Shown here: piece by piece, positions 7,394-33,186 of the stretch
Numbering within the stretch: position 1 is the stretch's first letter
Layout: the number at the start of each line of letters is the position of its first letter
NCBI GenBank assembly: GCA_946414655.1
Contig: CAMKPL010000005.1
Location: 1-62,327, forward strand
DNA: 62,327 nucleotides
Source: an uncultured Caryophanales bacterium
GTDB taxonomy: Bacteria; Bacillota_I; Bacilli_A; RFN20; CAG-826
Direction of reading: 5' to 3'
Program-made: the position numbers and the translations under genes
Notes under the pieces: model-generated
What the model saw: only the letters and a program-made list of their open reading frames with translations
Databases searched by the model: none
Told to the model about the DNA's origin: nothing

Positions 7394-7396
7394 TAA

Positions 7397-9005: not shown

Positions 9006-9006
9006 A

Positions 9007-9720: not shown

Positions 9721-9763
9721 TTTCTTTAAACGAATTATAATGATTAAAATGGGAGTGATTTTG

Positions 9764-10066: not shown

Positions 10067-10081
10067 AAATGGAGGAAAATG

Positions 10082-11324: not shown

Positions 11325-11327
11325 GTG

Positions 11328-12028: not shown

Positions 12029-12050
12029 ATTTTTGTGGAGGTGCGTGCAA

Positions 12051-12601: not shown

Positions 12602-13012
12602 ATGAATTTAAAAGAAGATATATGCTTAAAAGATTTATGTGGAATCCACAAGTTTCAAGGGATTGAGCTTTCAACACGAACAATTACGGATTATTTTAAC
12701 CATGAGTACAAATGTGATGTTGTTAAATTTATGCTTGATAACATAACATATGAAGCAATAGAAGACCCTGATGATGGGTATAGAAGCTATTGTAGTGAAA
12801 TTAAAATTTCTTATGAAAAACCAAAATACACGTTTCCAGATTATAAAATATTATGTAAAATGAAGCCGCGTGATGAAGACGGTGAGCATGATGTGCTGGT
12901 TGGTGTGGATTTAGATACTGGCGATACTATATTTGAAATAGGGACTTTATATGTTGACGACTATTATCCTTGTTGCCATTTTGAATATCATCCCGAAAAC
13001 ATGCATTTTTAG
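12602..13012 (+). CDS. Conserved phage protein of unknown function (136 aa)
   Basis: It starts after GAAGGGAG at the end of the repeat block. GIHKFQGIEL near the start, EDPDDGYRSYCSE in the middle and YYPCCHFEYHPE at the end form a pattern I recall from many gut Bacillota phages, always annotated hypothetical. The conserved Cys and His could bind a metal. Its place between origin and replisome hints at a replication-linked role, which is inference only. Confidence 0.75.
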   Translation: MNLKEDICLKDLCGIHKFQGIELSTRTITDYFNHEYKCDVVKFMLDNITYEAIEDPDDGYRSYCSEIKISYEKPKYTFPDYKILCKMKPRDEDGEHDVLVGVDLDTGDTIFEIGTLYVDDYYPCCHFEYHPENMHF

Positions 13013-13026
13013 AAAGGACGGATAAA

Positions 13027-13182
13027 ATGAGTGTGTTAATGCATATATGTTTATCTATTATTGGCTTATGTACAGTAGCAATAATTATTAGTTCAATTCA
13101 TACATTATTTATTTATCATAAAGTCGATAAGGAATATGAGGAACTTAGTAAAAAACATGAAGAAAGGATGGACAAAAAATGA
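13027..13182 (+). CDS. Small membrane protein (51 aa)
   Basis: ATG 13027 follows AAAGGACGG. Hydrophobic residues about 4-28 form one membrane helix, then a charged coiled-coil-like tail. It overlaps the next gene by 4 nt (ATGA). Confidence 0.6.
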   Translation: MSVLMHICLSIIGLCTVAIIISSIHTLFIYHKVDKEYEELSKKHEERMDKK

Positions 13183-13469
13183 AATGCGCAACACCAGGGA
13201 TGTATGGACGGAAAGCTCCAATTGAGTCCTCAACAATAAGAGATGACTTTATTGATAAAAATGTTCTTAATGATGATGACAATAATTTAACTCCCAAAGA
13301 AATTGCTAAAGAGCTTCAAGAGCATTGGGATCAAATTTGTGAAGATCGAGAAAAGTTATATATCTTATACGGACGTGGTTCTGGTAAAACTAAATTTCAA
13401 GATCAACTGTTTAAAGAGTATATGGAACAATTACTTCAAAAAGATAAGGAGGAACATGAAAATGCTTAA
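13179..13469 (+). CDS. Small protein with isolated P-loop-like motif (96 aa)
   Basis: GRGSGKT near residue 66 is preceded by a beta-like YILY run and fits a Walker A loop, but the protein ends about 25 residues later with a helix, leaving no room for a full ATPase core. It may bind nucleotide or phosphate only as part of a complex. AAGGATG provides the ribosome site inside the preceding gene. Confidence 0.6.
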   Translation: MKCATPGMYGRKAPIESSTIRDDFIDKNVLNDDDNNLTPKEIAKELQEHWDQICEDREKLYILYGRGSGKTKFQDQLFKEYMEQLLQKDKEEHENA

Positions 13470-13644
13470 CGTTATTGGAGCTATAATTTGTGGAATATTT
13501 ATTGCGTCTTTTATTGTGTTTATTATATTAACATTCGACAAGATCTTAACATCTTTTGAAAAATTAGAAAAAGCTGAAAAAGAAAGGCATGACATAATTA
13601 TTAAATTAATAGAAAATTTGGGTAACATTCATTCGCAAAAATAA
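13462..13644 (+). CDS. Small membrane protein (60 aa)
   Basis: ATG 13462 lies 9 nt after AAGGAGG, better placed than ATG 13456. A hydrophobic N-terminal helix (about residues 4-25) is followed by a Lys/Glu coiled-coil-like helix. The last codons (Ser-Gln-Lys-stop) lie in promoter P9. Confidence 0.6.
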   Translation: MLNVIGAIICGIFIASFIVFIILTFDKILTSFEKLEKAEKERHDIIIKLIENLGNIHSQK

Positions 13645-13657
13645 CCTTTTGTATAAT
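13633..13657 (+). promoter_or_regulatory. TCGCAA-type promoter P9
   Basis: TCGCAA at 13633-13638 and TATAAT at 13652-13657, 13 nt apart. It reads into a small coiled-coil gene and possibly on into the replisome gene. Confidence 0.75.
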
Positions 13658-13676
13658 AGAAAGGATGGTGATTAAA

Positions 13677-13871
13677 ACGATAGAAATAGAAGAATATGTT
13701 GATAATCTTGAAAAAAGTAATGAAATTAGCGATCTTATAATTTCAAAACAAAAAGAATTGATTTCTATTTTGAAAGAAGATCTGAATCATTGTGAACGAA
13801 TTATCAATTTATTACAAAATAGATTATCAAAATATGAACCAGATATTTCTAAAGAATTGGCGGAACAATAA
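13677..13871 (+). CDS. Coiled-coil small protein, probable ACG start (64 aa)
   Basis: The leader has GGTGAT and 4 nt, then ACG at 13677, where comparable units (19797, 55653, 2769) have ATG or GTG. ATG 13665 and GTG 13668 are in frame but lie at the predicted transcription start or within the ribosome site. The protein is one long Leu/Ile/Lys/Glu helix likely to form a coiled coil. It ends inside a terminator hairpin. Confidence 0.5.
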   Translation, partial: TIEIEEYVDNLEKSNEISDLIISKQKELISILKEDLNHCERIINLLQNRLSKYEPDISKELAEQ

Positions 13872-13890
13872 CTGCCTTTTCTTTTTTTTT
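13859..13890 (+). terminator. Terminator with stop codon in the loop
   Basis: GGCGG at 13859-13863 pairs with CTGCC at 13872-13876 (one G-U); the TAA stop is in the loop and a T tract follows. Confidence 0.7.
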
Positions 13891-13909
13891 CTAAAGGAGG
13901 GATTTCTGT

Positions 13910-16900
13910 GTGGATTTCTATCAGATAAAAGAACGATGCCTTAAAAATGGAGTAATTGAAATTTATCCTGACTTTAAGATTTGTCGTTCGAGAGATTTGA
14001 TGGTTCGAGGAAAAGCGTTTTATGCAATATGGGATAAGGAGGCTGGATTATGGAGTACTGATGAATACGACGTACAGCGGCTTGTAGACGAAGAACTTAC
14101 CAAATATTATGAAGAAAGAAAAGATAATATTGATGGCAAGATCAAAATAAAGCTTCTTGGAAACTATTCATCAAAATCGTGGATTGATTTTAAAAATTAT
14201 GTTTCACACTTATCGGATAATGCAAGAGATCTTGATTGCTCTGTATTATTCTCAAATTCAAAAGTGAGGAAAACTGATTATGCAAGCAGACGACTGGATT
14301 ATCCATTACAACAAGGCGATTGCGCAGCTTACGAAGAACTTATCTCAACTTTGTACGACCCCGAAGATAGAGATAAACTTGAATGGGCTATTGGATCAAT
14401 TATTGCAGGAGATTCTAGAACCATTCAAAAATTTATTGTGCTCTATGGCGAACAAGGCTCTGGAAAGTCTACAATCCTTAATATCATCCAGCAACTTTTT
14501 AATGGATATTACACTACTTTCGAAGCAAAAGCATTGGCGTCAAATTCAAATGCTTTTTCAACAGAAGTGTTTAAAGCAAATCCACTTGTGGCAATACAAC
14601 ATGATGGAGATCTCAGCAAGATTGAAGATAATACAAAAATCAATTCAATCGTCTCGCATGAAGAAATGGTGATTAATGAGAAGTTCAAATCTTCATATAC
14701 TTCCAAAATCAATGCCTTTCTTTTTATGGGAACTAATAAACCGGTCAAAATAACAGATGCAAAATCCGGTATTATTCGACGATTGATAGATGTGAGGCCT
14801 AGTGGTAGAAAAATACCTCCTAAAAAGTATGATGCCTTATATTCTCAAGTTTCTTTTGAATTAGGTGCGATTGCTTATCATTGTCTTGAAGTTTATAGAA
14901 AACTTGGTAAAAATTATTATCAATCTTATAAACCTTTGGAAATGATGTTTCAAACGGATGTATTTTTCAATTTTGTTGAGAGCTGTTATGATATCTTTAA
15001 AGATCAAAATGGATGTACATTATCTCAAGCTTATGATCTATACAAAAAGTATTGTGATGATTCTTTAGTTGATTTTAAATTAGCAAGATACAAATTCAGA
15101 GAAGAACTTAAAAACTATTTTAAAAACTTTGATCTTATTGCTCGGGTTGATGGTAAACAGGTCCGAAGTTATTATTCAGAGTTCCTAACTGATAAATTTG
15201 TAAATGTTAAAACTGAATCTGAAGAAAAACATAATACTTTAGTTCTTGATCAAAATGTTTCTTTATTTGATGAAATATGTAAGGATTGTTTGGCACAATA
15301 TGCAAGTCGTAAAGAAATTCCTCTTGAAAAATGGGATGATGTCGATACCGTTCTTGAAGATCTTAACACTAAAAAGCTTCATTATGTTAAACTTCCAGAG
15401 AATCATATTGTAATTGATTTTGATCTTAAAGATTCAGATGGTAAAAAATCTGCAGAATTAAATTTGGCTGCTGCTAGTCAATGGCCTGCAACATATGCTG
15501 AATATAGCAAAGGCGGTAAAGGGATACATCTTCATTATTTTTATAACGGAGATGTAACAAAATTAAAAAGGCTTTATTCTGAAAATATTGAGATAAAAGT
15601 CTTTACTGGAAAGGGGGCTCTCAGACGGAGGCTAACGAAATGCAATAATATCCCCATAGCAACTCTTAATGGGGGCCTTCCACTAAGGGAGGAAAAGAAT
15701 GTGATAAATTATGACGTAATCAAAAGCGAGAAAAAGTTACGCGACATGATTGAAGCCAATCTTCGAAAAGAGTATCACCCATCAACAGCGTCAAGTATAT
15801 CTTTTATTCACAAGTTGTTGGAGGACGCTTATAATTCTGGAATGAAATATGATTTGTCAACTATGCGGCCAACTGTTACATACTTTGCTGCAAATAGTAC
15901 AAATCAATCCGGAAATTGTTTGAAGCTTGTTGCTGATATGAAATTTAAATCCGATGAGCCATCTGAAAATTCTGAAAAAAACTATACCGAAGATATATTT
16001 GCATTTTTCGATATAGAAGATTATCCAAATTATTTTCTTGTTTGTTGGAAATATCGTGGAGACAACGTTGTTCATTCAATGGAAAACCCAAAACCACATG
16101 AAATTGATGAACTATTCAAAAAGAAGCTTATTGGATTTAATAATCGTAAATATGATAATCACATTCTTTATGCTGCTCATTTGGGATATAATAATGGACA
16201 ACTTTACAATCTTTCATCGAGTATAGTTAATAAAAAACCAGATTGTTATTTTGGAGAAGCATATAATCTTTCATATACTGACATTTATGATTTTTGTCAG
16301 AAAAAGCAAAGTCTTAAAAAATGGGAGATTGAACTTGGAATCCATCATATGGAAATGGGTATTCCTTGGGATCAGCCTCTTCCTGACGATATGAAAGAGA
16401 AAGTTAAGCGGTATTGTTGTAATGATGTTATTGCTACTGAAGCGGTATTCGAACATAATATTGCAGACTTTAATGCTCGATTAATATTGGCTGACTTATC
16501 TGGTTTGACTGCTAATGATACTACAAATTCGCATTCCAAAAGATTTATATTTGGCAAGGAACGCCATCCTCAGAGTGAATTTATTTATACGGACTTGTCG
16601 ACTATATTTCCTGGTTATGAATATAATCCATATGGAATTGATAAAAGTCAATATAATCCAGATGCAAAGATTGTAAATGGAAAATCTATTTATAAAGGAC
16701 AAGATCCAAGTGAAGGAGGTTTTGTTTATGCGGAGCCCGGGGTGTATGGTAATGTGGGCCTGTACGATATTGCTTCTATGCATCCTACTAGTATTGAGTG
16801 TCTTAATCTCTTTGGGGATAAGTATACTGCTAAGTTTTCTGCCATAAAGAATGCTCGATTAGCCATTAAGCATTTGTCTATTGCTTATGAAAATAATGAT

Positions 16901-17932
16901 CAAAATGCTATTGAAAGATTATCGGATGAACTGGCTGGAATGTTTGATGGAAAGCTCGTAAAATATATTGGCAATCCTGAACAGTTAAAGCCTTTGTCTG
17001 GAGCATTAAAGATCGTTATTAATTCGGTTTATGGCTTGACATCAGCGAAGTTTGAAAATGAATTTAAAGATCCTCGAAATGTTGATAATATTGTTGCCAA
17101 ACGAGGAGCTTTGTTTATGATTGAACTTAAAGACGCTTGTGAAAAAGCTGGATATAAAGTTGTTCATATTAAAACAGATTCTATCAAAATTGCAAATGCT
17201 AATGATGAGATTAGAGACTTTGTAATGAACTTTGGAAAGAAATATGGATATGCTTTTGAACATGAAGCAACTTATGACAAAATGTGTTTGGTTAATGATG
17301 CTGTCTATATTGCAAAGTATTCTGATGATGAAGTTAATCCTGAAAAGAAGCGTGGAACTTGGACCGCGACTGGTGCTCAATTTGCTCATCCTTATGTGTT
17401 CAAAACGTTATTTTCTCACGATCCGATTACATTCCAAGATAAATGTGAAACAAAATCTGTTACTTCAAAATTATATTTGGATATGAATGAGGATTGCGAT
17501 GATGTAACACTTGAGGAAAAAGAACTTGAGAAACGCCGTAAAATGAAACGAACTGGTAAAAATGCTAGATTGAATCCAGATTTTAAAGATTATTCTGATG
17601 AGTGGCTTGAAGAACGGATTGCTTCTGGGCATAGATACGAATTCATTGGCCGTGTTGGATTATTTTGTCCTATTAAATCCGGATATGGTGGCGGCGTATT
17701 ATATCGTGAGCAAGACGGAAAATATTACGCTGTTACTGGCACTTCTGGATTTAGGTGGCTTGAAGCAGAAACTGTTATGAATTTGTACAAAGAGGATGCA
17801 ATTGATTTGCGATACTTTGATAAACTTGTTCAGGATGCTGCAAGTCAAATTTTATTATATGCTGATTTGGATTGGTTCTGCTCTGATGAGAAATATACTG
17901 GAACTGATGCAGATCCTATTTGGCCATTTTAA
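13910..17932 (+). CDS. Helicase-primase-DNA polymerase fusion protein (1340 aa)
   Basis: GTG 13910 follows AAAGGAGG by 9 nt. An SF3/D5-type helicase region comes first, with Walker A GEQGSGKST at about 180-188. An archaeo-eukaryotic primase-type region follows, with IDFDLKD at about 500 and GGKGIHLHY at about 535. Next is a family-B 3'-5' exonuclease (FFDIED about 700, FNNRKYDN about 743, YCCNDV about 834). The polymerase palm has motif A DIASMHPTS (about 952), motif B KIVINSVYG (about 1034) and motif C KTDS (about 1088). It could unwind, prime, copy and proofread from one chain. The helicase-before-primase order is unusual; PrimPol-helicase proteins usually have the primase first. No stop or frameshift interrupts it. 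Confidence 0.9.
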   Translation: MDFYQIKERCLKNGVIEIYPDFKICRSRDLMVRGKAFYAIWDKEAGLWSTDEYDVQRLVDEELTKYYEERKDNIDGKIKIKLLGNYSSKSWIDFKNYVSHLSDNARDLDCSVLFSNSKVRKTDYASRRLDYPLQQGDCAAYEELISTLYDPEDRDKLEWAIGSIIAGDSRTIQKFIVLYGEQGSGKSTILNIIQQLFNGYYTTFEAKALASNSNAFSTEVFKANPLVAIQHDGDLSKIEDNTKINSIVSHEEMVINEKFKSSYTSKINAFLFMGTNKPVKITDAKSGIIRRLIDVRPSGRKIPPKKYDALYSQVSFELGAIAYHCLEVYRKLGKNYYQSYKPLEMMFQTDVFFNFVESCYDIFKDQNGCTLSQAYDLYKKYCDDSLVDFKLARYKFREELKNYFKNFDLIARVDGKQVRSYYSEFLTDKFVNVKTESEEKHNTLVLDQNVSLFDEICKDCLAQYASRKEIPLEKWDDVDTVLEDLNTKKLHYVKLPENHIVIDFDLKDSDGKKSAELNLAAASQWPATYAEYSKGGKGIHLHYFYNGDVTKLKRLYSENIEIKVFTGKGALRRRLTKCNNIPIATLNGGLPLREEKNVINYDVIKSEKKLRDMIEANLRKEYHPSTASSISFIHKLLEDAYNSGMKYDLSTMRPTVTYFAANSTNQSGNCLKLVADMKFKSDEPSENSEKNYTEDIFAFFDIEDYPNYFLVCWKYRGDNVVHSMENPKPHEIDELFKKKLIGFNNRKYDNHILYAAHLGYNNGQLYNLSSSIVNKKPDCYFGEAYNLSYTDIYDFCQKKQSLKKWEIELGIHHMEMGIPWDQPLPDDMKEKVKRYCCNDVIATEAVFEHNIADFNARLILADLSGLTANDTTNSHSKRFIFGKERHPQSEFIYTDLSTIFPGYEYNPYGIDKSQYNPDAKIVNGKSIYKGQDPSEGGFVYAEPGVYGNVGLYDIASMHPTSIECLNLFGDKYTAKFSAIKNARLAIKHLSIAYENNDQNAIERLSDELAGMFDGKLVKYIGNPEQLKPLSGALKIVINSVYGLTSAKFENEFKDPRNVDNIVAKRGALFMIELKDACEKAGYKVVHIKTDSIKIANANDEIRDFVMNFGKKYGYAFEHEATYDKMCLVNDAVYIAKYSDDEVNPEKKRGTWTATGAQFAHPYVFKTLFSHDPITFQDKCETKSVTSKLYLDMNEDCDDVTLEEKELEKRRKMKRTGKNARLNPDFKDYSDEWLEERIASGHRYEFIGRVGLFCPIKSGYGGGVLYREQDGKYYAVTGTSGFRWLEAETVMNLYKEDAIDLRYFDKLVQDAASQILLYADLDWFCSDEKYTGTDADPIWPF

Positions 17933-17972
17933 AAAAACATTAAAATATATTTACAGAAAGGGATTTTTAATT

Positions 17973-18539
17973 ATGAGAGACAATTCTAGAAAAGTATCAC
18001 CGCTTGAAATTAATGGAGCCAAAATCGTTTTAAGAAGAAACTTTTCAGGTGACGTAATCGTTACCAAAAGTGGATCTTGGAATCAAGAGGGTAAAAGAAC
18101 GTTTAACATTGAGTTGGATCAAGAACTTGCAGATATGTTGGTAACTGATTTGTGGAGTGTTAAACAATATGAGAACCAGGACGGCGAAGTAACACTGTTT
18201 CTCCCCATTGAGATTAAATTTAATACGTATGACAAATACGACAAAGCGACTGCTGAAGAACTTAAAGAGAAGTTTAATCCTAAAGTTTACATTGTAACTG
18301 ATCAGCATAAGGTTCTTCTTGATGAATATAGTCTTCAGCTCCTTGACAAAGCTCGAATTAAATACGTAAATTTGAGAATCAATCCTTATCCTTGGGTCAT
18401 TGGCTCTAAGGTGGGAACTAAAGCTTATCTTGACAAAATGTATGTTGTTATTGAGCCTGGTGATGATACTGTTGTTAAAGAAGATCCGTTGGATGCTGAA
18501 TTTGCAAATGTTCCTCTGGGCGAACTTGATGAATTTTAA
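17973..18539 (+). CDS. Single-stranded DNA-binding-like protein (188 aa)
   Basis: ATG 17973 follows AGAAAGGG. The first 100 residues are beta-rich (EINGAKIVLRRNFSG, then FNIELDQELA), as in phage SSB-like OB-fold proteins. The C-terminus is acidic and ends in Glu-Leu-Asp-Glu-Phe, like an SSB tail that recruits partners. Its place between the fused polymerase and the SF2 helicase fits. It shares one base with the next start codon. Confidence 0.65.
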   Translation: MRDNSRKVSPLEINGAKIVLRRNFSGDVIVTKSGSWNQEGKRTFNIELDQELADMLVTDLWSVKQYENQDGEVTLFLPIEIKFNTYDKYDKATAEELKEKFNPKVYIVTDQHKVLLDEYSLQLLDKARIKYVNLRINPYPWVIGSKVGTKAYLDKMYVVIEPGDDTVVKEDPLDAEFANVPLGELDEF

Positions 18540-19747
18540 TGGTTACTTTCTTTCCGCATCAAGAGAAAGCGATTAGACAACTCCGTTCCGGCTCCATCCT
18601 TTGCGGTGGGGTCGGTTCCGGAAAGTCAAGAACTTCATTGGGTTATTTTTTAATAAAAGAATGTAATGGAGATTTGGGATGTGAACATGTTGACAACCCA
18701 AAAAACCTTTTAATAATAACCACTGCTAAGAAAAGGGATGAAAAAGAATGGGATTCTGAATGCGAGGTATTTGGGCTGAGTCAAAATAAAGATGAATCCT
18801 TTTGTGGAATCAAAGTAATAATCGATTCATGGAACAATATAAAGAAATGCGTAGAATTTCAAAATGGATTTGTTATATTTGATGAACAAAAAGTTGTTGG
18901 CTCTGGAGCTTGGGTTAAAGCTTTTTACAAGATAGCTTCTAAGAATCATTGGATATTATTAACTGCCACACCCGGGGATAGCTGGATGGATTATATACCC
19001 GTTTTTGTCGCAAATGGGCATTATAAGAATAGATCGTCATTTTTATTTGAACATGCTATTTATGATAGATATTCAAAATATCCAAGAATAAGTAGATGGC
19101 TTGGAAACGATAAGCTTGAACGAATCCGAAATGATATTCTTGTTGAGATGCCATTTGAAAAGAAAACAAATAGACATGAAATTATTGTTTCTGTAGATTA
19201 TAATAAAATGCTATATAAAACAGTTGTTCGAGATCGATGGAACCCATACGATAATAAACCAATTGAGAATTCGTCCGAGCTATATGCTTTAATGCGTAGA
19301 GTTACGAATAGTGATGAGAGTAGGCTTGAAGCGATTGTAAATATATTTTCAAAACATAAACGACTTATAATTTTTTATAGCTTTGATTATGAATTGGAAA
19401 TATTAAAAAGTTTGGATAAGGTGTTGAGTAATGTTAAGATTGCTGAATGGAATGGGCATAAACACGAACAAGTTCCCGAAACAGATAACTGGATATATTT
19501 AGTAAATTATATGTCTGGAGCTGAAGGATGGGAATGCATAAAAACAAATACAATTGTATTTTATTCTCAACAATATTCTTATCGTATATCTGAACAATCA
19601 ATGGGACGAATTGATAGACTCAATACTCCTTATATTGATTTATATTATTATTGTCTAAGATCTAAAGCTTGGATTGATGTTGCCATTGGACGAGCTATGA
19701 TCCAGAAGAAAGACTTTAATGAACGGCGGCATGCATTTAAGTTTTGA
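18539..19747 (+). CDS. SF2 DNA/RNA helicase (402 aa)
   Basis: Walker A GGVGSGKS is near residue 23, motif II FDEQ near 114, motif III LTATPGD near 141 and motif VI QSMGRIDRLN near 353. Spacing and order fit a compact SNF2-like SF2 helicase. DEQ instead of DEAH/DEAD is common in phage members of this type. TAATG overlap with the SSB-like gene indicates coupled synthesis. It probably remodels replication or recombination intermediates; the substrate is not visible from the sequence. Confidence 0.85.
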   Translation: MVTFFPHQEKAIRQLRSGSILCGGVGSGKSRTSLGYFLIKECNGDLGCEHVDNPKNLLIITTAKKRDEKEWDSECEVFGLSQNKDESFCGIKVIIDSWNNIKKCVEFQNGFVIFDEQKVVGSGAWVKAFYKIASKNHWILLTATPGDSWMDYIPVFVANGHYKNRSSFLFEHAIYDRYSKYPRISRWLGNDKLERIRNDILVEMPFEKKTNRHEIIVSVDYNKMLYKTVVRDRWNPYDNKPIENSSELYALMRRVTNSDESRLEAIVNIFSKHKRLIIFYSFDYELEILKSLDKVLSNVKIAEWNGHKHEQVPETDNWIYLVNYMSGAEGWECIKTNTIVFYSQQYSYRISEQSMGRIDRLNTPYIDLYYYCLRSKAWIDVAIGRAMIQKKDFNERRHAFKF

Positions 19748-19752
19748 TCGGG

Positions 19753-19777
19753 TCGCAAAATTTTCCTTCCTTATAAT
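19753..19777 (+). promoter_or_regulatory. TCGCAA-type promoter P10
   Basis: TCGCAA at 19753-19758 and TATAAT at 19772-19777, 13 nt apart. Confidence 0.75.
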
Positions 19778-19796
19778 AGAAAGGATGGTGATATAA

Positions 19797-20126
19797 ATGA
19801 AAATTATAGATACCAATTATGAAAAAAATAGTATATATCAAGATAATATGAAAATTCTTAATTGTTTGAAGTTTCTTCAACATGAATTTAATATTGAATA
19901 TAAAAAAGCTATTTTAAATAATGATGGAAAAAAAGCTGCATTATGCATATTAAAACAAGCAGAATTCATCGAATGCCAAAATATGGTTGAACGTGCAATT
20001 GATGCATTCTTATTGTTGGATGAAAATGATGATGTATCAAAGTTTGAAAGAGCGTTATTCAATGTAAAAAATAGTGAAGAACTTAAAGGTATTTGGGAAT
20101 CTTGTGGTATACATTGGTGCAAATAA
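19797..20126 (+). CDS. Hypothetical helical protein (109 aa)
   Basis: It starts 4 nt after GGTGAT. It is helical and rich in Lys, Asn and Glu, with three Cys scattered through it. No motif is recognised. It is a single-gene unit between P10 and the terminator at 20151. Confidence 0.6.
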   Translation: MKIIDTNYEKNSIYQDNMKILNCLKFLQHEFNIEYKKAILNNDGKKAALCILKQAEFIECQNMVERAIDAFLLLDENDDVSKFERALFNVKNSEELKGIWESCGIHWCK

Positions 20127-20150
20127 TTAAAAAAGTATCACAAAAGAATT

Positions 20151-20181
20151 GGCAGAATAATCTCTGCCTTTTCTTTTTTTA
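20151..20181 (+). terminator. Intrinsic terminator
   Basis: GGCAGA and TCTGCC form a 6-bp stem around AATAAT, followed by TTTTCTTTTTTT. It is the same family as the terminators at 13859, 55783 and 61040. Confidence 0.75.
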
Positions 20182-20183
20182 CC

Positions 20184-20208
20184 TCGCAAAAAAAACATGG
20201 ACTATAAT
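20184..20208 (+). promoter_or_regulatory. TCGCAA-type promoter P11
   Basis: TCGCAA at 20184-20189 and TATAAT at 20203-20208, 13 nt apart. It is the last promoter of this type before a 34-kb gap, and it opens onto the structured leader at 20215-20413. Confidence 0.75.
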
Positions 20209-20214
20209 AGAAGG

Positions 20215-20413
20215 AATAGAATACGCCTTTTTTGACGTATATTTGTTTGTTTTCGATTGTAAAATCGATGCAAATACATTCCTTCCTATTTTTTTCATTT
20301 TTAGGGAACGTCTTTTCTCGCGAGTACGTTCTTTTAGAAATCCCTTTAACCCCGGCTAAGAGCTCAGGCGGCTCTTGGGCTCTTAGCATCTTATTAAAAA
20401 GGATTTGATTAAA
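20215..20413 (+). ncRNA. Structured leader or small RNA ahead of nuclease/RNAP genes
   Basis: This is about 200 nt without a credible gene, starting at the predicted transcription start of P11. Visible hairpins are ATACG/CGTAT (20221-20240); TCGATT/AATCGA with a GTAA loop (20253-20268), enclosed by ATTTG/CAAAT; GAACGT/ACGTTC around CTCGCGAG (20306-20331); and GCTAAGAGC/GCTCTTAGC, 9 bp (20355-20387). The last lies just before the ribosome site of the gene at 20414 and lacks a T tract. A regulatory leader or a stable RNA are both possible. Confidence 0.5.
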
Positions 20414-20713
20414 ATGGGAAAACTTGAAAAAGATTTTCAAAGAAATCTTATTAAGGAACTTGAACAAATTTATAACAATCCTGATTCGGATGTTATAACA
20501 AAGTTTGAAGACATTCAAGGCTATCCCGATATATTAATTCTTCATCATGATCAATGGGCTATGCTGGAATGCAAAAAATCTAAAGACGCTCCACATAGAC
20601 CTAATCAAGACTTTTATGTTAATCGTTTGAACAAAATGTCATTTGCAAGATTTATATATCCAGAAAATAAGGAGGAAGTGCTGAATGATCTTCAATCCAC
20701 ATTACAACCTTAG
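20414..20713 (+). CDS. PD-(D/E)xK nuclease, VRR-NUC-like (99 aa)
   Basis: ATG 20414 lies downstream of AAAAAGGATTTGAT. GYPDILIL near residue 36 and LECKKS near residue 52 supply the Asp and Glu-x-Lys of a PD-(D/E)xK active site, and the size matches stand-alone phage VRR-NUC nucleases, which act on branched DNA. It precedes a RecB-like nuclease and overlaps it by 29 nt, suggesting joint work in DNA processing. Confidence 0.65.
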   Translation: MGKLEKDFQRNLIKELEQIYNNPDSDVITKFEDIQGYPDILILHHDQWAMLECKKSKDAPHRPNQDFYVNRLNKMSFARFIYPENKEEVLNDLQSTLQP

Positions 20714-21248
20714 AGACAAACATGCTTTTCTTGGGGCAAGTAATTATCATTGGCTCAATTATACTGATGACAAATTAAAAGATACTTACCTCAACAATAG
20801 AGCAAAAGAGCTTGGAACTAAGAAGCATAAGTTTGCAAAAGATGCTATTGAACTAAAAATCAAGCTTCCAAAAACATCTAAAACTTTGGATCATTATGTT
20901 AATGACGCCATCGGTTTTAATATGATTCCTGAGCAACCGTTATATGTTAATGACGTTTGTTTTGGAACTGCCGATGCAATTCATTTTAATGAGAAAACTA
21001 TGGTGTTGAGGATTCATGATTTGAAAACTGGTAAAATTCCAGCATCAATGGCACAGCTTCGAATTTATGCAGCAATGTTCTGTTTGGAATATAAATATAG
21101 TCCGAACGATCTTAAAAAGATTATATTGAGAATTTATCAAAATGATGATGTTGTTGAAGAAATTGCAGAACCGACAACTATCATGTATATTATGGATCAA
21201 ATAAAATATAAAAGTGAATATATTACAAATCTTGAACTGGAGGGCTAA
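20685..21248 (+). CDS. RecB/Cas4-like PD-(D/E)xK nuclease (187 aa)
   Basis: GTADAIHF (about residue 92), HDLKTGK (about 111) and QLRIYAAMF (about 124) match motifs II, III and QhXXY of the RecB nuclease family. An N-terminal His (about residue 48) in KKHKFAKDAI could complete the site. There is no obvious Fe-S cysteine cluster, unlike Cas4 itself. It likely processes DNA ends in replication or recombination. Confidence 0.7.
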   Translation: MIFNPHYNLRDKHAFLGASNYHWLNYTDDKLKDTYLNNRAKELGTKKHKFAKDAIELKIKLPKTSKTLDHYVNDAIGFNMIPEQPLYVNDVCFGTADAIHFNEKTMVLRIHDLKTGKIPASMAQLRIYAAMFCLEYKYSPNDLKKIILRIYQNDDVVEEIAEPTTIMYIMDQIKYKSEYITNLELEG

Positions 21249-21251: not shown

Positions 21252-24014
21252 ATGAATGAAGCTTTTGAGCGATATATGGAATTAGTGCACAGCGGTGTTG
21301 CTCATGACGAAAACCCTCCTGGTCGAGGCTCTGGACGATACGCCTGGGGTTCCGGTGAGCATTCATATCAGCATCTTAAAACGTTTCAAGATGCAGTTCG
21401 ATCAATGAGAAAGAATGGCCTCGATGGTGAACCGATGACTGATAAACAAATTGCTGAAGTCATGAACATGACAACCACGCAGCTTCGCGCAAGATTGTCT
21501 GTTGCTGACAATGAAGTTAGAAAAGCTGATATCGCTACAGTAAGAAGAATGAAAGCCGATGAACCCGGCATTTCAAATGTTGAAATTGGTAGAAGACTTG
21601 GGCTTCCAGAATCGACCATTAGAAACTATTTGAAATATGATGTCGAGCATCTTACTGAAACTTCTGGTGTTCATAACGCTAACGTTCTTGCTGAGCAATT
21701 GGAAAAGCGCGGCTATTTAGACGTTGGTAGTGGTGTTGAACGTCATATGGGAATATCAAAAGATAAGCTTAATACTGCCCTTGAAGTTCTTAGAGATCGA
21801 GGATATGCAATTCACAACCTTCAAGTAGAACAACTTGGAACGGGAAACTATACAACTGTAAAGGTTCTTGCTCCTCCTGGAACTGACTTTGCTACTGTTT
21901 CTAGAAATAGAGATAAGATCCAAATTCCAAATGTTTATACTGATGACGGTGGGCAAACCATTAAAGCTCTTGAACCTCCAAGAAGCGTTAGTTCAAAACG
22001 CGTTCAAATTAGATATGCTGAGGATAAAGGTGTTGAACGTGACGGTCTTATTGAGTTGAGGCGTGGAGTTGATGATATTTCGCTTGGCAAAGCAATGTAT
22101 GCTCAGGTTCGTATTGCTGTTGATGGAACCCATTATCTTAAAGGCATGGCGGTTTATGCCGATGATCTACCTGAGGGGGTCGACATTCGTTTTAATACCA
22201 ATAAACATAAAGGTACCCCCATGCTTGGCGAAAAAGATAACAGTGTCTTAAAACCAATGAAAATGGTTAATGGCAAGCTTGATCTTGAAAATCCATTTGG
22301 CGCTTCTATTAAACGGGATGACGAGCTTATGCTTGCTCAACGTCATTATGTTGATAAAAATGGAAAAACACAACTATCTGCAATAAATATTGTTAATGAG
22401 CAAGGTGAATGGGCAACTTGGTCTAAGAATCTTCCTTCTCAATTCTTATCAAAGCAATATCCTTTTCTTGCACAAAGACAATTGGGTTTAACCTTTGCTC
22501 AAAAGAATGATGAGTACAAAGAAATTATGTCGCTTACGAATCCAGTAATTAAGAAGAAACTATTGGATTCTTTTGCTGATGAATGTGACTCTGCAGCAAC
22601 ACATTTGAAAGCAGCAGCCTTACCGAGGCAACAAACTCATGTCATTCTTCCTTTTCCGGATATACCTGACAATGAAATCTATGCTCCCAACTATAAGAAT
22701 GGCGAAACAGTTGCATTGATTAGATATCCACATGGTGGTATATTTGAGATTCCGCAATTGAAAGTTAACAACAATATCAAAAGCGCTAATAAGATTATTA
22801 AGAACGCTCCTGATGCTGTTGGCATTAATGCTCATGTAGCAGCAATTCTTTCTGGTGCGGACTATGACGGCGACAGTGTTGTGGTTTTGCCTTTAAAGAA
22901 TCAAAAGATTAGGCGTAAAGATCCTTTAAAAGATCTTGAAGGGTTTGATCCTAAAGAGGCTTATCCAGGGTATGAAGGCATGCCTCGAATGACAGCCCGA
23001 GCTAAAGCAACTCAAATGGGCAAGGTAACAAATCTTATTACCGATATGACTTTGCGCGGAGCTGGCGATGAGGATCTTGTTAAAGCTATTAAGCATTCAA
23101 TGGTAATCATCGATGCCGAAAAACATAACCTTAATTGGAGAAAGTCTGCAATTGATAATGATATTGCCGCTTTAAAGCGTAAGTATCAAGGTGGCCCCAA
23201 CGCTGGTGCATCGACTCTGATTTCAAGAGCTTCATCTGAGATTAATGTCCCGGCTTTTAAAAAGAAAATCAATCCTGATGGTAGCATGGTTAGAGAACTT
23301 ACTGGCAAAACTAGAAAGGATAAAGCCGGCAATATTAAGGTGGCGACTGTCAAATCAACAAGGATGATGGACACCTTCTATAGAGAAGGAGCTCCTAAGG
23401 ATGCAAGAGCTCTTTCATCTGGCACTAGGATTGAAGAGATATACGCCTCCCATGCAAATAAACTAATGGCCCTGGCTCAAGAAACTAGGAAGGCGTCCAT
23501 AAACATTAAGCCCTATAAGATGTCTGCCTCTGCAAAACAAGCATACCCCAAAGAAGTAGCATCCCTCAATGAGAAACTTGATAGGGCTCTTAAGAATGCG
23601 CCACTAGAAAGAAAGGCACAGCTCATTGCGAATAAGAAAGTATCTTTAAGAATCCAGCAAGATCCAGACATGGATGCTGATAAGAAGAAGAAGATACGTG
23701 GTCAAGAACTGAACCGTGCTCGAAATTTAGTAGGGGCTAAGAAAGATCTTGTGAATATTACTGATTCTGAATGGGAAGCTATTCAAGCTCATGCTGTATC
23801 ATCCAATGTTCTCACACAGATCATGAACAACACTGATATGGATAAGCTCAAACAAAGGGCTACTCCTAGAACAACTGTTGGCATGCCTGCTGCAAAGATA
23901 GCTAGAGCCAAGCTTTTGGCTCGTGCTGGTTTTAATCAAGCAGAAATAGCAGAACAATTACATGTTTCTGTAACAACACTTCGTAACAATGTTGATTTAA
24001 CTGTTTACAATTAA
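21252..24014 (+). CDS. Putative phage RNA polymerase, DxDGD (YonO/QDE-1-like) type
   Basis: This encodes 920 residues. The catalytic signature DYDGD is at 537-541, in GADYDGDSVVVLPL. It is preceded by RYPHGGIFEIPQ (about 490) and GINAHVAAI, an arrangement matching the beta-prime-type barrel of cellular RNA polymerase and its single-chain relatives. Two helix-turn-helix segments lie near 62-82 and 107-126 and one at about 895-914; they could recognise promoters. A GRGSGRYAWGSG tag sits at about 24-35 and resembles tags in virion-region proteins at 30673 and 31235. It begins 4 nt after the RecB-like gene. The second barrel and the bridge helix could not be placed by eye, so activity is unproven. 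Confidence 0.75.
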   Translation: MNEAFERYMELVHSGVAHDENPPGRGSGRYAWGSGEHSYQHLKTFQDAVRSMRKNGLDGEPMTDKQIAEVMNMTTTQLRARLSVADNEVRKADIATVRRMKADEPGISNVEIGRRLGLPESTIRNYLKYDVEHLTETSGVHNANVLAEQLEKRGYLDVGSGVERHMGISKDKLNTALEVLRDRGYAIHNLQVEQLGTGNYTTVKVLAPPGTDFATVSRNRDKIQIPNVYTDDGGQTIKALEPPRSVSSKRVQIRYAEDKGVERDGLIELRRGVDDISLGKAMYAQVRIAVDGTHYLKGMAVYADDLPEGVDIRFNTNKHKGTPMLGEKDNSVLKPMKMVNGKLDLENPFGASIKRDDELMLAQRHYVDKNGKTQLSAINIVNEQGEWATWSKNLPSQFLSKQYPFLAQRQLGLTFAQKNDEYKEIMSLTNPVIKKKLLDSFADECDSAATHLKAAALPRQQTHVILPFPDIPDNEIYAPNYKNGETVALIRYPHGGIFEIPQLKVNNNIKSANKIIKNAPDAVGINAHVAAILSGADYDGDSVVVLPLKNQKIRRKDPLKDLEGFDPKEAYPGYEGMPRMTARAKATQMGKVTNLITDMTLRGAGDEDLVKAIKHSMVIIDAEKHNLNWRKSAIDNDIAALKRKYQGGPNAGASTLISRASSEINVPAFKKKINPDGSMVRELTGKTRKDKAGNIKVATVKSTRMMDTFYREGAPKDARALSSGTRIEEIYASHANKLMALAQETRKASINIKPYKMSASAKQAYPKEVASLNEKLDRALKNAPLERKAQLIANKKVSLRIQQDPDMDADKKKKIRGQELNRARNLVGAKKDLVNITDSEWEAIQAHAVSSNVLTQIMNNTDMDKLKQRATPRTTVGMPAAKIARAKLLARAGFNQAEIAEQLHVSVTTLRNNVDLTVYN

Positions 24015-24029: not shown

Positions 24030-24344
24030 GTGATTCTTATCACAGATGATGTAATGCTTACAACTATAGACAATCCTTGGAATCCATTCACTAACTTTGA
24101 TGAATGGTTAGCGTATGATCATGAAATGGGTTACGATACAGTTTGTTATCTTGATAGAGTTGCTAATGCTAGTGAAGAATTGAGTGATAACGATTACGAT
24201 GAAGCAATTCTTGAAGCAATGAAAGAAATTTGTGAGTTAAATGTTTTAGGAATTTACAAATTGATTCACAAAGATGACGTTATTGATCCAAACAAAGTTC
24301 AAACTAATTTGGCATCGATCTTGAATGCTCAAGCTCAAGGCTAA
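24030..24344 (+). CDS. Conserved phage protein of unknown function (up to 104 aa)
   Basis: GTG 24030 lies within the AGAGGTGAT ribosome site and is a poor start. At GGTGAT plus 4 nt, where comparable genes have ATG, the codon is ATC (24039). The first ATG (24054) is too far. A non-standard ATC start is therefore possible. The protein is acidic, with TTIDNPWNPFTNFDEW near the N-terminus and ICELNVLGIYK later, a pattern I recall from many gut Bacillota phages, always hypothetical. Confidence 0.7.
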   Translation: MILITDDVMLTTIDNPWNPFTNFDEWLAYDHEMGYDTVCYLDRVANASEELSDNDYDEAILEAMKEICELNVLGIYKLIHKDDVIDPNKVQTNLASILNAQAQG

Positions 24345-24828
24345 TAAGTTTGTAGTTGAATAATTATTTTGTAAAACGAATAAGTTTATACATTTCATTT
24401 GGTTTAAAAGAATATTCTAAATACTTTTCAGCGTTCTTTCAATCGATTGCAACAAAAGTTAACTAAAAATTTTAATTCAGAAATGGAGGAATCTCCACTT
24501 TTCCTCAGTTTACATAATTACAAAAGCTTTTGTTGTTGAATTCTTGAAAGACCTGAGGGCATTTAGAATTCTTTTAACATAGGGGGGGGTCCGCAGTATT
24601 ATACCCCCCTCTCTTTTCGCCGCCCTCTTCAAAAAAACCCCGGAGGGACATTTTTAGGAAACTTTTTATGGGCATAGAGATTCCGTCTGCATGATTTGTC
24701 GCATTTCTTACCCAAAAATCAATTGTACACTACACCTTCTTTCATTTATATATATTCTCCTGTCTCTATGCCTTTAAAAAGTCTCCTAAAAGTACTACAA
24801 AACTATAAAACATTGAGGTGAAAGTCCA
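24345..24828. promoter_or_regulatory. Structured gene-free block, candidate cos/pac and late control site
   Basis: These 484 bp contain no supported gene. The block holds a G8 run (24582-24589) facing a C6 run (24604-24609) across CCGCAGTATTATA. It also holds a 29-bp imperfect inverted repeat (about 26 of 29 matching) at 24652-24680 and 24763-24791. Smaller dyads are CAACAAAAG/CTTTTGTTG and GTTGAATTCT/AGAATTC. It separates the early side from the virion genes and precedes the packaging module. TTGTAC near 24724 with TATATA downstream could be a late promoter. A cohesive-end or packaging site is favoured because an HNH gene and TerS/TerL follow; this is inference. Confidence 0.5.
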
Positions 24829-28916: not shown

Positions 28917-30659
28917 TTGGCTTTATCTAATACTGCGGTTCCAAAGTATTACGGTGAGTTTAGAGAAAAAGTTATACGAGGGGAAATTCCTGTAAATGAA
29001 AAGATCTCTCTTCAAATGAATCGTATCGACAGACTTATAGAACATAGCGGTGTTTACTATGATGAAGCAAAAGTGGAAGGATTCATTGAATTTTGTGAAA
29101 ATGAACTCACACTAACTGATGGCTCAGACTTATTTGTTCTTGATTATTTCAAGCTTTGGGCCGAAGACCTTTTAGGCTGGTATTACTTTGTTGAACGAAG
29201 TGTATATGTTCCAGAGCCGGGCGGCAAAGGACATTACGAACGAAAACTTATAAAAAAGCGTCTTATAAATAAACAGTTTCTCATTGTTGGACGAGGCGCT
29301 GCAAAATCTATGTATGCATCATGTATACAAAGTTATTTCTTAAATGTTGATACGTCAACAACTGACCAGATTGTAACTTCACCAACGATGAGACAATCGG
29401 AAGAAGTATTATCGCCAATACGAACAGCTATAGCAAGAGCAAGAGGACCACTGTTTAAATTCTTAACTGAAGGCTCTCTTCAAAATACTACGGGTTCTCG
29501 TGCAAATCGATTAAAACTTGCTGCAACCAAAAAAGGAATCGAGAATTTCTTAACTGGTTCTCTCATTCGTATAATTCCGATGACCGTTGATCGTCTTCAA
29601 AGTATGAGATGTAAGATTGTTACTATAGACGAATGGCTTTCTGGCGATACAAGAGAAGATGTAACTACAGCGGCGGAGCAAAGTGCTAAGAAAGCTAAAG
29701 ACTGGATCATGCTTGCCATTAGCTCTGAAGGTACAGTCCGAAATGGTGTCGGCGATACAATCAAAATGGAGCTACTTAGCATCCTTAAAGGTGAGTATCA
29801 AGACATTCATACTTCTATTTGGTGGTATTGTCTTGATAACATAAAAGAAGTTGGTGACCCATCGAAATGGATTAAGGCGAATCCAGGCCTTGGACAAACA
29901 GTTTCGTATGAAGACTATCAGCAAGAAGTTCTAAGGGCCGAAAAAGCCCCCGCCACACGAAATGACATCCTTGCAAAACGTTTCGGACTACCGATGGAAG
30001 GATACACATATTTCTTTACTTATGAAGAAACAATTCCGCATCGACATAGAACGTTTTGGGAAATGCCTTGTGCGATGGGCGCCGACTTATCTCAAGGTGA
30101 TGACTTCTGTGCGTTTACTTTCTTATTTCCGTTATCGACCGCTGAATTTGGCGTAAAGACTCGATGCTATATTTCGGAGAGAACCCTTATGAATCTTCCG
30201 GCTGCAACAAGAGAAAAATACGAGGATTTCATCAAAGAAGGAACTCTCATGATCATGCCTGGAACTGTTCTTGATATGATGACTATCTATGATGACATCG
30301 ATCGATTTATTATAGATCAGCATTACGAGGTTCGTTGTTTTGGTTACGACCCATATAATGCAAGAGAATTTGTTGAACGCTGGACTCAAGAAAATGGACC
30401 ATTCGGCATTGTAAAAGTTATTCAGGGACGCAAAACAGAATCGGTTCCTCTTGGCGAACTTAAGAAATTTGCTGAAGATCGCGCTTTGTTATTTGACGAA
30501 GACATGATGCAATTTACGATGGGCAACAGTGTAGTTCTTGAAGATAATAATGGAAATAGACAATTATATAAGAATAGACATGATCGTAAAATTGATAGCG
30601 TCGCTGCTATGATGGATGCTTATGTTGCCTATAAAGCAAATTACGACATGTTCTTTTAG
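28917..30659 (+). CDS. terL: Terminase large subunit (580 aa)
   Basis: TTG 28917 follows CGAGGTGAAAT. The ATPase has Walker A GRGAAKS at about 125-131 and Walker B IVTIDEW at about 234. The RuvC-like nuclease has Asp in GADLSQGDD (about 389), FGYDPYNA (about 478) and KIDSVAAMMDA (about 562). The length is normal for this family. It drives DNA into the prohead and cuts it. Confidence 0.9.
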   Translation: MALSNTAVPKYYGEFREKVIRGEIPVNEKISLQMNRIDRLIEHSGVYYDEAKVEGFIEFCENELTLTDGSDLFVLDYFKLWAEDLLGWYYFVERSVYVPEPGGKGHYERKLIKKRLINKQFLIVGRGAAKSMYASCIQSYFLNVDTSTTDQIVTSPTMRQSEEVLSPIRTAIARARGPLFKFLTEGSLQNTTGSRANRLKLAATKKGIENFLTGSLIRIIPMTVDRLQSMRCKIVTIDEWLSGDTREDVTTAAEQSAKKAKDWIMLAISSEGTVRNGVGDTIKMELLSILKGEYQDIHTSIWWYCLDNIKEVGDPSKWIKANPGLGQTVSYEDYQQEVLRAEKAPATRNDILAKRFGLPMEGYTYFFTYEETIPHRHRTFWEMPCAMGADLSQGDDFCAFTFLFPLSTAEFGVKTRCYISERTLMNLPAATREKYEDFIKEGTLMIMPGTVLDMMTIYDDIDRFIIDQHYEVRCFGYDPYNAREFVERWTQENGPFGIVKVIQGRKTESVPLGELKKFAEDRALLFDEDMMQFTMGNSVVLEDNNGNRQLYKNRHDRKIDSVAAMMDAYVAYKANYDMFF

Positions 30660-31234: not shown

Positions 31235-31852
31235 ATGAATGAAATAGTTTGGCTTTCTCATGGTGGACCTGGCTCTGGCAGGTATCCTAAAGGAAGCGGT
31301 AAGAAAAATGAGATTCGAAAAAAATATTTGGGTCTTCATGCTTCTGGATCTAAAGAATTAGAAAATATTGGTGTGTATACAAAACGCCAGGCTAAATATG
31401 CAGCAAAAGTTGAGAGTAAATATGGTAAGTCATTACTTGGAAAAAAAGGAATAAATATTGAAGAAACTTTAAGGGACTCTCCTTTTAAACACAGGCCTCG
31501 TGCATATGGAAAAAATTTGAAAGTCTGGGACACTGTTGAAGAAAAGAATGACGAACTTAGACGTTTGAATAAGATTTCTAAAGGGCAGATGGTTTATAAA
31601 CCAGGCTTGTATCGAGATGTAAAAAGCATTCAATCGAAAATTGAAACCGTGCGTGGAAGAGGACATGTTTTAAACGAAAATTGGGTAACTATAACACCAA
31701 AGGATGCCATTAAAATTGCAAATAGAGCTCTTAAGTCTGATAAGCCTTATAAGCAAATTGGCGAAAAATATGTTCATAATAAGAAAATAAAAGCTTCAAT
31801 TAAAAACGCTTTAATACGCGCTTCCTATCGTACAATGCGTTCTATTTCTTAA
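31235..31852 (+). CDS. Tag-bearing protein next to portal (205 aa)
   Basis: It starts MNEIVWLSH and then GGPGSGRYPKGSG, the clearest copy of the GSGRY tag that also occurs in the putative RNA polymerase. The remainder is basic (Lys/Arg-rich) and helical, without known motifs. It starts 1 nt after the previous gene. Position and tag suggest a minor head or internal virion protein. Confidence 0.65.
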   Translation: MNEIVWLSHGGPGSGRYPKGSGKKNEIRKKYLGLHASGSKELENIGVYTKRQAKYAAKVESKYGKSLLGKKGINIEETLRDSPFKHRPRAYGKNLKVWDTVEEKNDELRRLNKISKGQMVYKPGLYRDVKSIQSKIETVRGRGHVLNENWVTITPKDAIKIANRALKSDKPYKQIGEKYVHNKKIKASIKNALIRASYRTMRSIS

Positions 31853-31873: not shown

Positions 31874-33175
31874 TTGAATCGCAAAACAATGAGTCATTCA
31901 GCTTTGCTTTCCAATCGAAGAAGTAAAAACCGTTTTGCAGAGTTTCAGCCTAGAGGATATTCTCCTCCAAAATCGTATATAGGATTGAATGGTTATCCTT
32001 CGAACAAAGTTGGATATCATATAGACTATCGTAAACCTGATAGAGATAACATCGATCCTAGAACGAATGAAACCATCTTATCGGCTATTTATAACCGTTT
32101 TGCCGTTGATGTTGCGCTTTTAAATTTCATGCATGCTCAATTGGATGATGACGATCGGTTTAAAGAAGCAAAAGATTCGGATTTGAACAAATGCTTTAGC
32201 TTGTCTGCAAATCTCGATCAAGTACCTTTTGATTTCTTTAAAAATTTAGTTATCAATATGCTCGATAAAGGCGATATTGCTGTGGTCCCAGTTGATACGA
32301 GTGAAGATCCAACTTTTACTGACGCTTATGACGTGAGTTCTTTACGTTATGGTGAAATTGTACAATGGGAACCAGCTAGAGTAAAAGTTCGATTGTATAA
32401 CGAACAAACTGGTATTTACGAAGAAATCTTTTGTGATAAACGATGGACTGCGATTCTTGAGAATCCTTTCTATCTTATCATGAATGAACCAAACTCCGTT
32501 GGCATCAGGCTTAAGCAAAAACTTGCAATGCTTGATAAACTCGACAAAGAGCAAACCTCTGGCAAACTTGACTTAATCATTCAGCTCCCTTATGTAATTA
32601 AGACAAAATTACAAAAGAAGCAAGCCGAAGACCGTAAGAAAGCTATTGAAATGCAGCTTACGGATTCAAAATACGGTATTGCTTACACTGATGGAACTGA
32701 AAGAATCACGCAGTTAAATCGTGCCGTCGAGAATAATCTTCCAGAGCAAGTTGCAGATCTTCGTAAAGAACTTATCAATCGATTGGGAATTACCGAAGCT
32801 ATTGTCGATGGTTCTGCTAAAGAAGATGAGCTTCTGAATTATTACAATCGTATTATTGAACCAATTTGTACAGTTATTTGTATGGAGTTTAAAAGAAAAT
32901 TCCTAAGCAAAACGGCTATTTCTCAGCATCAGTCAATTACGTACTTTAGAGATCCGTTCAAGTTAGTTCCGGTTTCTCAGATTGCTGAAATTGCTGATAA
33001 ATTTACAAGAAACGAGATAATGACTTCTAATGAATTTAGAGGTATTATTGGAATGAAGCCTTCGAGCGATCCGGCTGCTGATGAACTTCGTAATAAAAAC
33101 CTTAATCGAAATTCTGAAGATTCTTTGCCGGTTAAGAAGGAAGAAAATCCAAATACAATAAATGAAGATGAGTGA
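31874..33175 (+). CDS. Portal protein (433 aa)
   Basis: TTG 31874 lies after AGGGTTGAT. Order and content fit an HK97-type portal: an N-terminal polar arm, a wing region, a long central helix (LRKELINRLGITEAIVDGSA) and a C-terminal EFRGIIGMKPSSDPAADELRN clip-to-crown segment. It follows TerL and precedes the protease/capsid gene. The last 4 nt overlap the in-frame upstream codon of the next ORF. Confidence 0.85.
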   Translation: MNRKTMSHSALLSNRRSKNRFAEFQPRGYSPPKSYIGLNGYPSNKVGYHIDYRKPDRDNIDPRTNETILSAIYNRFAVDVALLNFMHAQLDDDDRFKEAKDSDLNKCFSLSANLDQVPFDFFKNLVINMLDKGDIAVVPVDTSEDPTFTDAYDVSSLRYGEIVQWEPARVKVRLYNEQTGIYEEIFCDKRWTAILENPFYLIMNEPNSVGIRLKQKLAMLDKLDKEQTSGKLDLIIQLPYVIKTKLQKKQAEDRKKAIEMQLTDSKYGIAYTDGTERITQLNRAVENNLPEQVADLRKELINRLGITEAIVDGSAKEDELLNYYNRIIEPICTVICMEFKRKFLSKTAISQHQSITYFRDPFKLVPVSQIAEIADKFTRNEIMTSNEFRGIIGMKPSSDPAADELRNKNLNRNSEDSLPVKKEENPNTINEDE

Positions 33176-33186
33176 GGAAAATCAAA

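Follow-up and report, generated by a model that had tools for sequence, protein, structure and literature searches.

A single-chain RNA polymerase-family protein whose core lies between DNA-binding segments, and its candidate promoters, in a probable lineage of cos-type siphophages

Which genes might be transcribed by a phage RNA polymerase (RNAP) that consists of a single chain with its own DNA-binding segments at both ends, and how would such an enzyme find its promoters? This question is raised by a 920-amino-acid (aa) protein encoded on a stretch of 62,327 nucleotides from an uncultured Caryophanales bacterium (GCA_946414655.1, contig CAMKPL010000005.1), the whole of which is here called the window. 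An original prediction, made from the letters of the sequence, took the protein for an RNAP of the DxDGD type with helix-turn-helix (HTH) segments and held that its place would suit a polymerase which switches phage transcription. We find that the protein belongs to the double-psi-barrel RNAP superfamily, and that a repeated promoter confined to the non-virion part of the window is the best candidate for its cognate promoter.

An intact open reading frame (ORF) occupies 21252-24014 of the plus strand; its product has DYDGD at residues 537-541 within GADYDGDSVVVLPL, as originally read, and RYPHGGIFEIPQ before it. In an alignment of 52 homologues, from which all conservation counts given here are taken, D537, D539, G540 and D541 are invariant, as are the upstream R491 and H494; residue 538 is Y in the window protein only and F in every other aligned homologue. 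The first-barrel region has three further invariant residues, Q285, K297 and K318, at a spacing that resembles, without being identical to, that of Q736/K743/K767 in QDE-1. The AlphaFold2 model has a mean predicted local distance difference test score of 82.9, with residues 1-40 disordered. When compared with the PDB by Foldseek it gave five matches at E<=0.001, all of them double-psi-barrel RNAPs with a probability of 1.00; these include the P23-45-type gp64 (8f72), P74-26 gp62 (8f5m) and plant RDR2 (7eu1) at E-values of 2e-5 to 1.5e-4, the template-modelling (TM) scores to these three being modest (0.2-0.4). In the comparison with predicted viral structures the two highest ranks went to a phage 'RNA dependent RNA polymerase' and to a 616-residue P23-45 protein. 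A PDB sequence search with the single RNAP sequence gave no match, and one with the RNAP profile recovered mainly the HTH regions and a weak DNA-directed RNAP beta-prime match (E=2.4); the polymerase homology thus rests on fold and motifs. On these grounds the window protein is, with high confidence, a member of the double-psi-barrel RNAP superfamily with both barrels in one chain, as had been predicted, and it would presumably be catalytically active. The gene and its parts, the exact boundaries of the two barrel regions being approximate, are:

21252-24014, plus strand: single-chain two-barrel RNAP (PHROG 4291 family), 920 aa, by ORF, profile, alignment, model and fold match
21432-21872, plus strand: HTH and winged-HTH segments, residues 61-207 (HTH_24 above cut-off; helices and strands in the model)
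22038-22400, plus strand: first double-psi-barrel region (beta-like), residues ~263-383, with Q285/K297/K318, by conservation and fold match
22614-22901, plus strand: second double-psi-barrel region (beta-prime-like), residues ~455-550, by motif, alignment and fold match
22860-22874, plus strand: DYDGD, residues 537-541, by ORF translation
22995-23126, plus strand: two long helices of the model (582-601 and 606-625), C-terminal to the DxDGD barrel, putatively at the place of a bridge helix
23889-23990, plus strand: C-terminal HTH, residues 880-913 (HTH_23 above cut-off)

Curated Pfam cut-offs are passed by HTH_24 at residues 103-128 and by HTH_23 at 884-912, the latter C-terminal segment being matched in 52/52 members. 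The model adds HTH-like helices at ~61-103 and, at 139-207, a fold resembling a winged helix. Hence the layout with DNA-binding segments at both ends stands, while the number ahead of the core, originally given as two, is probably three on the strength of the model, with one behind it.

The family itself and the polymerase superfamily are already known. Residues 25-913 match positions 19-904 of the 909-position PHROG 4291 profile (E=0, 1112.6 bits), and such a full-length match excludes a chance origin of the observation. Members such as Lactococcus phage 1706 orf75 and the proteins of ReqiPepy6 and FP_oengus (the last a 'putative RNA polymerase') are homologous to the window protein over their full length at 35-51% identity, and for most of them the operon and the position next to the cohesive-end site (cos) are as in the window. 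The window protein has DYDGD for DFDGD and a variant N-terminal tag (GRGSGRYAWGSG after an insert); nothing essential differs. By tblastn, relatives occur in 250 of 50,697 phage records (Arthrobacter 95, Gordonia 55, Streptomyces 54, Lactococcus 13, and others), nearly all at >=80% query coverage and <60% identity; most of the phage records listed name the protein 'helix-turn-helix DNA-binding domain protein'. At least 519 viral-contig stretches encode relatives. In a scan of prokaryote-genome contigs the single RNAP sequence found none, and the alignment as query found them on at least 136 stretches. One viral contig (L001) carries a copy 96% identical to that of the window; this, together with the intact frame and the circular contig (a 55-bp closing repeat), rules out a chimera, pseudogene or assembly artefact. 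The bacterial genome from which the window comes, a 1.2-Mb assembly (G000), has two more such phages besides the window's, so that three distinct ones lie on its contigs C5, C6 and C7; the RNAPs of C6 and C7 are 45% and 43% identical to the window's.

PHROG 4291 is annotated "RNA-dependent RNA polymerase" (RdRP), a name that RefSeq shares, and the Pfam RdRP family PF05183 is weakly matched, at E<=0.01, by 27/52 family members. The window protein itself scores 14.7 bits (E=0.013), under the gathering score of 23.8 bits, and sequence-specific DNA-binding segments in the context of a double-stranded DNA phage also speak against RNA as the template, so that a true RdRP is a very improbable reading. 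The eukaryotic RdRPs QDE-1 and RDR2 do share two barrels per chain, DxDGD and the invariant first-barrel Gln/Lys with the window protein (PMC1750930), but they use an RNA template and have no flanking HTH. A survey has covered 23 families of two-barrel RNAPs (PMC10770324). Among phage enzymes, the non-virion gp64 of Thermus phage P23-45 has the same single-chain two-barrel fold, and gp64-type structures are the best PDB match. The virion RNAP of the same siphophage, gp96, has its own promoter motif and is fused to the tape measure (PMC10770324), whereas the window protein is a separate protein with an N-terminal tag; it has no sequence match to gp64 or gp96 and differs from both in its DNA-binding segments at either end.

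The promoters proposed originally prove to be real. The pattern TCGCAA-N13-TATAAT has 24 plus-strand sites when a single mismatch is tolerated, where chance would give 0.82 over both strands, and among the spacings of 5-24 examined only 13 occurs. All 24 lie within 54620-62300 and 2725-20212, and none was found in the virion module (24829-54600); a switch to virion-gene transcription is therefore not supported. The sites found by the pattern scan are:

2725-2753, plus strand: TCGCAA-N13-TATAAT promoter
3133-3161, plus strand: the same, directly 5' of a tRNA gene
6314-6342, plus strand: the same
6553-6581, plus strand: the same
6831-6859, plus strand: the same
9007-9035, plus strand: the same
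9385-9413, plus strand: the same
13633-13661, plus strand: the same
19753-19781, plus strand: the same
20184-20212, plus strand: TCGCAA-N13-TATAATAGAA promoter upstream of the endonuclease-exonuclease-RNAP operon
54620-54648, plus strand: TCGCAA-N13-TATAAT promoter
55148-55176, plus strand: the same
55609-55637, plus strand: the same
56209-56237, plus strand: the same, 1 mismatch
56531-56559, plus strand: the same
56953-56981, plus strand: the same, 1 mismatch
57312-57340, plus strand: the same
57695-57723, plus strand: the same
58084-58112, plus strand: the same
58475-58503, plus strand: the same, 1 mismatch
58927-58955, plus strand: the same, 1 mismatch
60783-60811, plus strand: the same, 1 mismatch
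61076-61104, plus strand: the same, 1 mismatch
62272-62300, plus strand: the same, 1 mismatch, at the repeat that closes the circular contig

The tRNA gene at 3162-3238 (anticodon ATA, called Tyr) begins <=5 bases from TATAAT, which would constrain the start site; this argument was set aside as the end of the tRNA is uncertain. Repeated terminator-like hairpins followed by TTTTCTTTTT (363-382, 6523-6542, 9353-9370, 9689-9706) stand in some cases directly before promoters, and positions 1-20000 of the window hold 21 terminator-like sites against 7.6 expected.

Aligned sites from several phages give the core ACA-N5-TATARTRRR, which is seen again in relatives whose hosts are Lactococcus, Rhodococcus, Gordonia, Arthrobacter and Streptomyces; a pattern in which 4 bases separate ACA from TATA gave no result, the true spacing being 5. 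In 16 RNAP phages (0.93 Mb) WCA-N5-TATARTRRR has 124 sense sites and 1 antisense site, as against 13 sense and 14 antisense sites in 17 control records (~2 Mb). ReqiPepy6 has TCGCA-N14-TATAATGAGA, with a total spacing equal to the window's, and Camille, negative with the strict pattern, has seven sense sites that follow TATGGTGAG, TATGATGAG or TATTATGAG. In viral RNAP loci the motif, usually TATAATAGA, often lies ~900 bp ahead of the RNAP start. Two promoter sub-types are seen in L013, L018, L021 and L026-L103, with TATAATGAG on most non-virion genes and TATAATAGA before the endonuclease-exonuclease-RNAP operon. When viral contigs of >=35 kb were fetched by promoter pattern alone, 27/35 encoded the RNAP at E <1e-160 (25/31 for the GAGA and 2/4 for the multi-hit AGAA pattern; an additional weak match of 12.5 bits was left out), compared with 1/31 control contigs, which were fetched by a pattern lengthened by one spacer base or by a sigma-70 consensus carrying the same -10 flank. 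The shifted spacing matched 37 stretches once each, the correct one at least 120 stretches with up to 9 matches each; in the contig scan with TCGCAA...TATAATAGAA only multi-hit contigs were used, since single-hit ones may be due to chance. Promoter and RNAP thus travel together, which is not in itself proof of reading because these phages probably form one lineage.

The main competing explanation is that ACA-N5-TATAAT is read by the host sigma-70 RNA polymerase with a phage activator bound at about -20 to -35, in the manner of T4 MotA, the single-chain RNAP being otherwise engaged. The -10 element is near the sigma-70 consensus, a rigid spacing between an upstream box and TATAAT is also known with activators like T4 MotA, and small HTH proteins such as 1706 orf64 occur in some of these phages. 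Whole phages, on the other hand, have poor sigma-70 -10 boxes (TATAGT at 11/12 sites listed in 1706, TATGGT/TATGAT in Camille), and the RRRA flank belongs to the promoter element. The element is, moreover, common across host phyla, yet differs systematically in its -10 between two L. lactis phages, 1706 (TATAGTAGA) and P092 (TATAATGA), while P092 and the Rhodococcus phage ReqiPepy6 have TATAATGAG in common; a phage-encoded reader of the promoter is thereby favoured. We consider the host polymerase with an activator an appreciable though rather unlikely alternative, and recognition of the promoter by the window RNAP likely.

Is the polymerase made for the infected cell or carried into it? The family has an N-terminal tag with the consensus [LI]xHYG...SGRYPWGSG, in which H13, G15, S27-G28-R29, G33 and G35 of the window protein are invariant. 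In ReqiPepy6, whose RNAP starts with DEDDYLAHYGILRRSGRYPWGSG, six proteins encoded between terminase and portal start with DDFLAHYGVKGMKWGV or close variants, and a seventh has an internal tag; C6, C7 and further relatives likewise encode, between terminase and portal, proteins that start with similar tags, and one such protein is found in the window. The GMKWGV tag occurs in 246/50,697 phage records, with organism counts nearly equal to those of the RNAP. Three features are relevant here:

21282-21356, plus strand: N-terminal tag, residues 11-35 (LVHSG...GRGSGRYAWGSG), predicted to be disordered, by alignment and model
31235-31852, plus strand: companion protein lying between terminase and portal, its N-terminus bearing a similar tag (WLSHGGPGSGRYPKGSGKK), by sequence; no PHROG match
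33172-35049, plus strand: head maturation protease-major capsid fusion, with 7 [LIMVF]xH motifs in the linker (residues 143-309), by PHROG match and motif count

In the protease-capsid linkers of 8 phages [LIMVF]xH, mostly followed by A, S or G, occurs 60 times, compared with 16.9 in shuffles (maximum 29 in 2000 shuffles). From this pattern we suppose that the head maturation protease recognises or cleaves [LI]xH, and the tag may direct cargo into the head; the L/I-x-E cleavage sites of the T4 head protease offer an analogue for cleavage after His. The homologue in phage 1706, orf75, is a 'structural protein' in the original deposit EU081845, and orf7, with two tags, is so named in the RefSeq copy. 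As orf62 and orf71, which lie outside the virion module, also bear this label in the original deposit, it may well have come from virion proteomics. We regard packaging of the window RNAP in the virion, which the original prediction did not raise, as moderately probable, slightly less so than its recognition of the promoter, and these two estimates are not independent of each other. Batteries of GMKWGV-tagged proteins stand between terminase and portal in L013 (14155-19280), L022, L025, C6 and C7 as candidate ejected effectors, some annotated as amidase or acetyltransferase and some with two tags per chain.

We propose that the RNAP would enter the head by its disordered N-terminal tag, the [LI]xH core of which is common to other cargo proteins and resembles the repeats in the capsid protease-scaffold linker, might be trimmed by proteolysis after the His of the tag, and would be ejected together with the phage DNA to start transcription. 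Its flanking DNA-binding segments would recognise TCGCAA-N13-TATAATRRRA in the window phage (shared core ACA-N5-TATARTRRR), and it would transcribe the non-virion genes, presumably early ones, along with its own operon, the virion genes being left to another polymerase. If packaged, it would work like the virion RNAPs gp66 of crAss-like phages and that of N4; the N4 enzyme has the T7 fold, and gp66 belongs to a different two-barrel family. That the protein is a phage DNA-dependent RNAP which reads these promoters of non-virion genes and is both packaged and ejected has, as a complete chain, about an even chance. The more general proposal is tentative and falls somewhat short of that: a widespread cos-type siphophage lineage would inject a self-sufficient single-chain RNAP whose own promoter-recognition domains read ACA-N5-TATARTRRR, and which is sorted into the head with other effectors by an [LI]xH-G tag that is also a protease cleavage site after His.

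Several points weigh against this proposal. The RNAP phages look like one lineage with a common backbone, in which promoter, tag and RNAP could be passed on jointly without contact; TATAAT is also the sigma-70 -10 consensus; and the sister phages C6 and C7 are without the TCGCA element. FP_oengus and Siphovirus contig89 carry the RNAP, and no clear promoter array was found in them: a Gibbs motif search gave nothing convincing in either, and FP_oengus has one site, ACATGCCCTTTTATG, 5' of the nuclease-RNAP operon, that fits only loosely. The label 'structural protein' stands in a database note, a 100-kDa enzyme would require unfolding to pass a siphophage tail, and no report of activity was found for any family member. 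In the literature searched, mostly without subscription papers, we found no earlier description of the promoter, its association with the RNAP or the tag, and no paper on GMKWGV as such a tag. If the proposal holds, a common phage polymerase, carried by at least 250 sequenced phage records mostly from Arthrobacter, Gordonia and Streptomyces phages, gains a predicted promoter; the enzyme would be a single-chain model for sigma-free promoter finding by a two-barrel polymerase, and a 100-kDa polymerase with a defined promoter could yield a small expression tool. It would also provide a candidate tag with which proteins might be loaded into phage heads, and would predict a rule of cleavage for the capsid protease.

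Two further readings turn on the position of the gene. Its placement between the replication and virion modules holds (DNA polymerase at 13910-17932, terminase at 28917-30659), its exact site being beside cos. The gene order, DNA polymerase-annealing protein-helicase-endonuclease-exonuclease-RNAP-small ORF-cos, agrees with that of linear relatives, in which the RNAP is the second last gene, and the operon helicase-(HNH)-VRR-Nuc-Cas4-like exonuclease-RNAP-small ORF is conserved at the cos end. The neighbouring features are:

20411-20713, plus strand: endonuclease (phrog_93) of the RNAP operon, at the VRR-Nuc position of relatives, by PHROG match and conserved order
20685-21248, plus strand: Cas4-like exonuclease (phrog_3953) of the RNAP operon, by PHROG match and conserved order
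24030-24344, plus strand: small ORF (phrog_4303) directly 3' of the RNAP, conserved in the linear relatives examined, by PHROG match; a possible polymerase partner
24578-24627, plus strand: cos region, GGGGGGGGTCCGCA...TACCCCCC...TCGCCGCCCT, which matches linear relatives at their right ends and sister contig C7 at its end

The non-coding block 24345-24828, originally proposed as a test template, is by sequence match the cos region and no obvious promoter block, because its arrangement at ~24578-24627 is that of the right ends of most linear relatives (...GGGGGG-TCTCGCAAAA-...CCCCCC...GCATCGCCGCCCT), with which it shares the G-run/C-run hairpin and the TCGCCGCCCT end, and sister contig C7 ends exactly there. 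This bears on the possibility that the RNAP is a non-virion enzyme for the virion (late) genes with a promoter near 24345-24828. Its gene does lie just upstream of the virion module, and YonO of SPbeta, a single-chain DNA-dependent RNAP homologous to multi-subunit RNAPs, transcribes late genes (PMC5467207). Whereas YonO serves late genes, the window's candidate promoters are on non-virion genes, with no site of the repeated promoter in the virion module; the RNAP operon itself bears an early-type promoter, and the 1706 homologue is labelled structural, so that we hold a late-gene enzyme to be improbable. Still less probable is a polymerase that, instead of transcribing, primes or processes DNA for recombination, for replication or for packaging. 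Its operon partners are indeed two nucleases, the conserved operon stands at the cos end, and a TCGCAAAA-like sequence is also found at cos; against this, the phage already has a 1340-aa DNA polymerase with primase matches, the core of the RNAP is flanked by DNA-binding segments, and the promoter is associated with it. In many relatives (right ends of L009, L010, L014, L017, L019 and L021) the loop of the cos hairpin holds CGCAAA, mostly as TCGCAAAA; this is a word of the upstream promoter element and could be a second site for the same protein.

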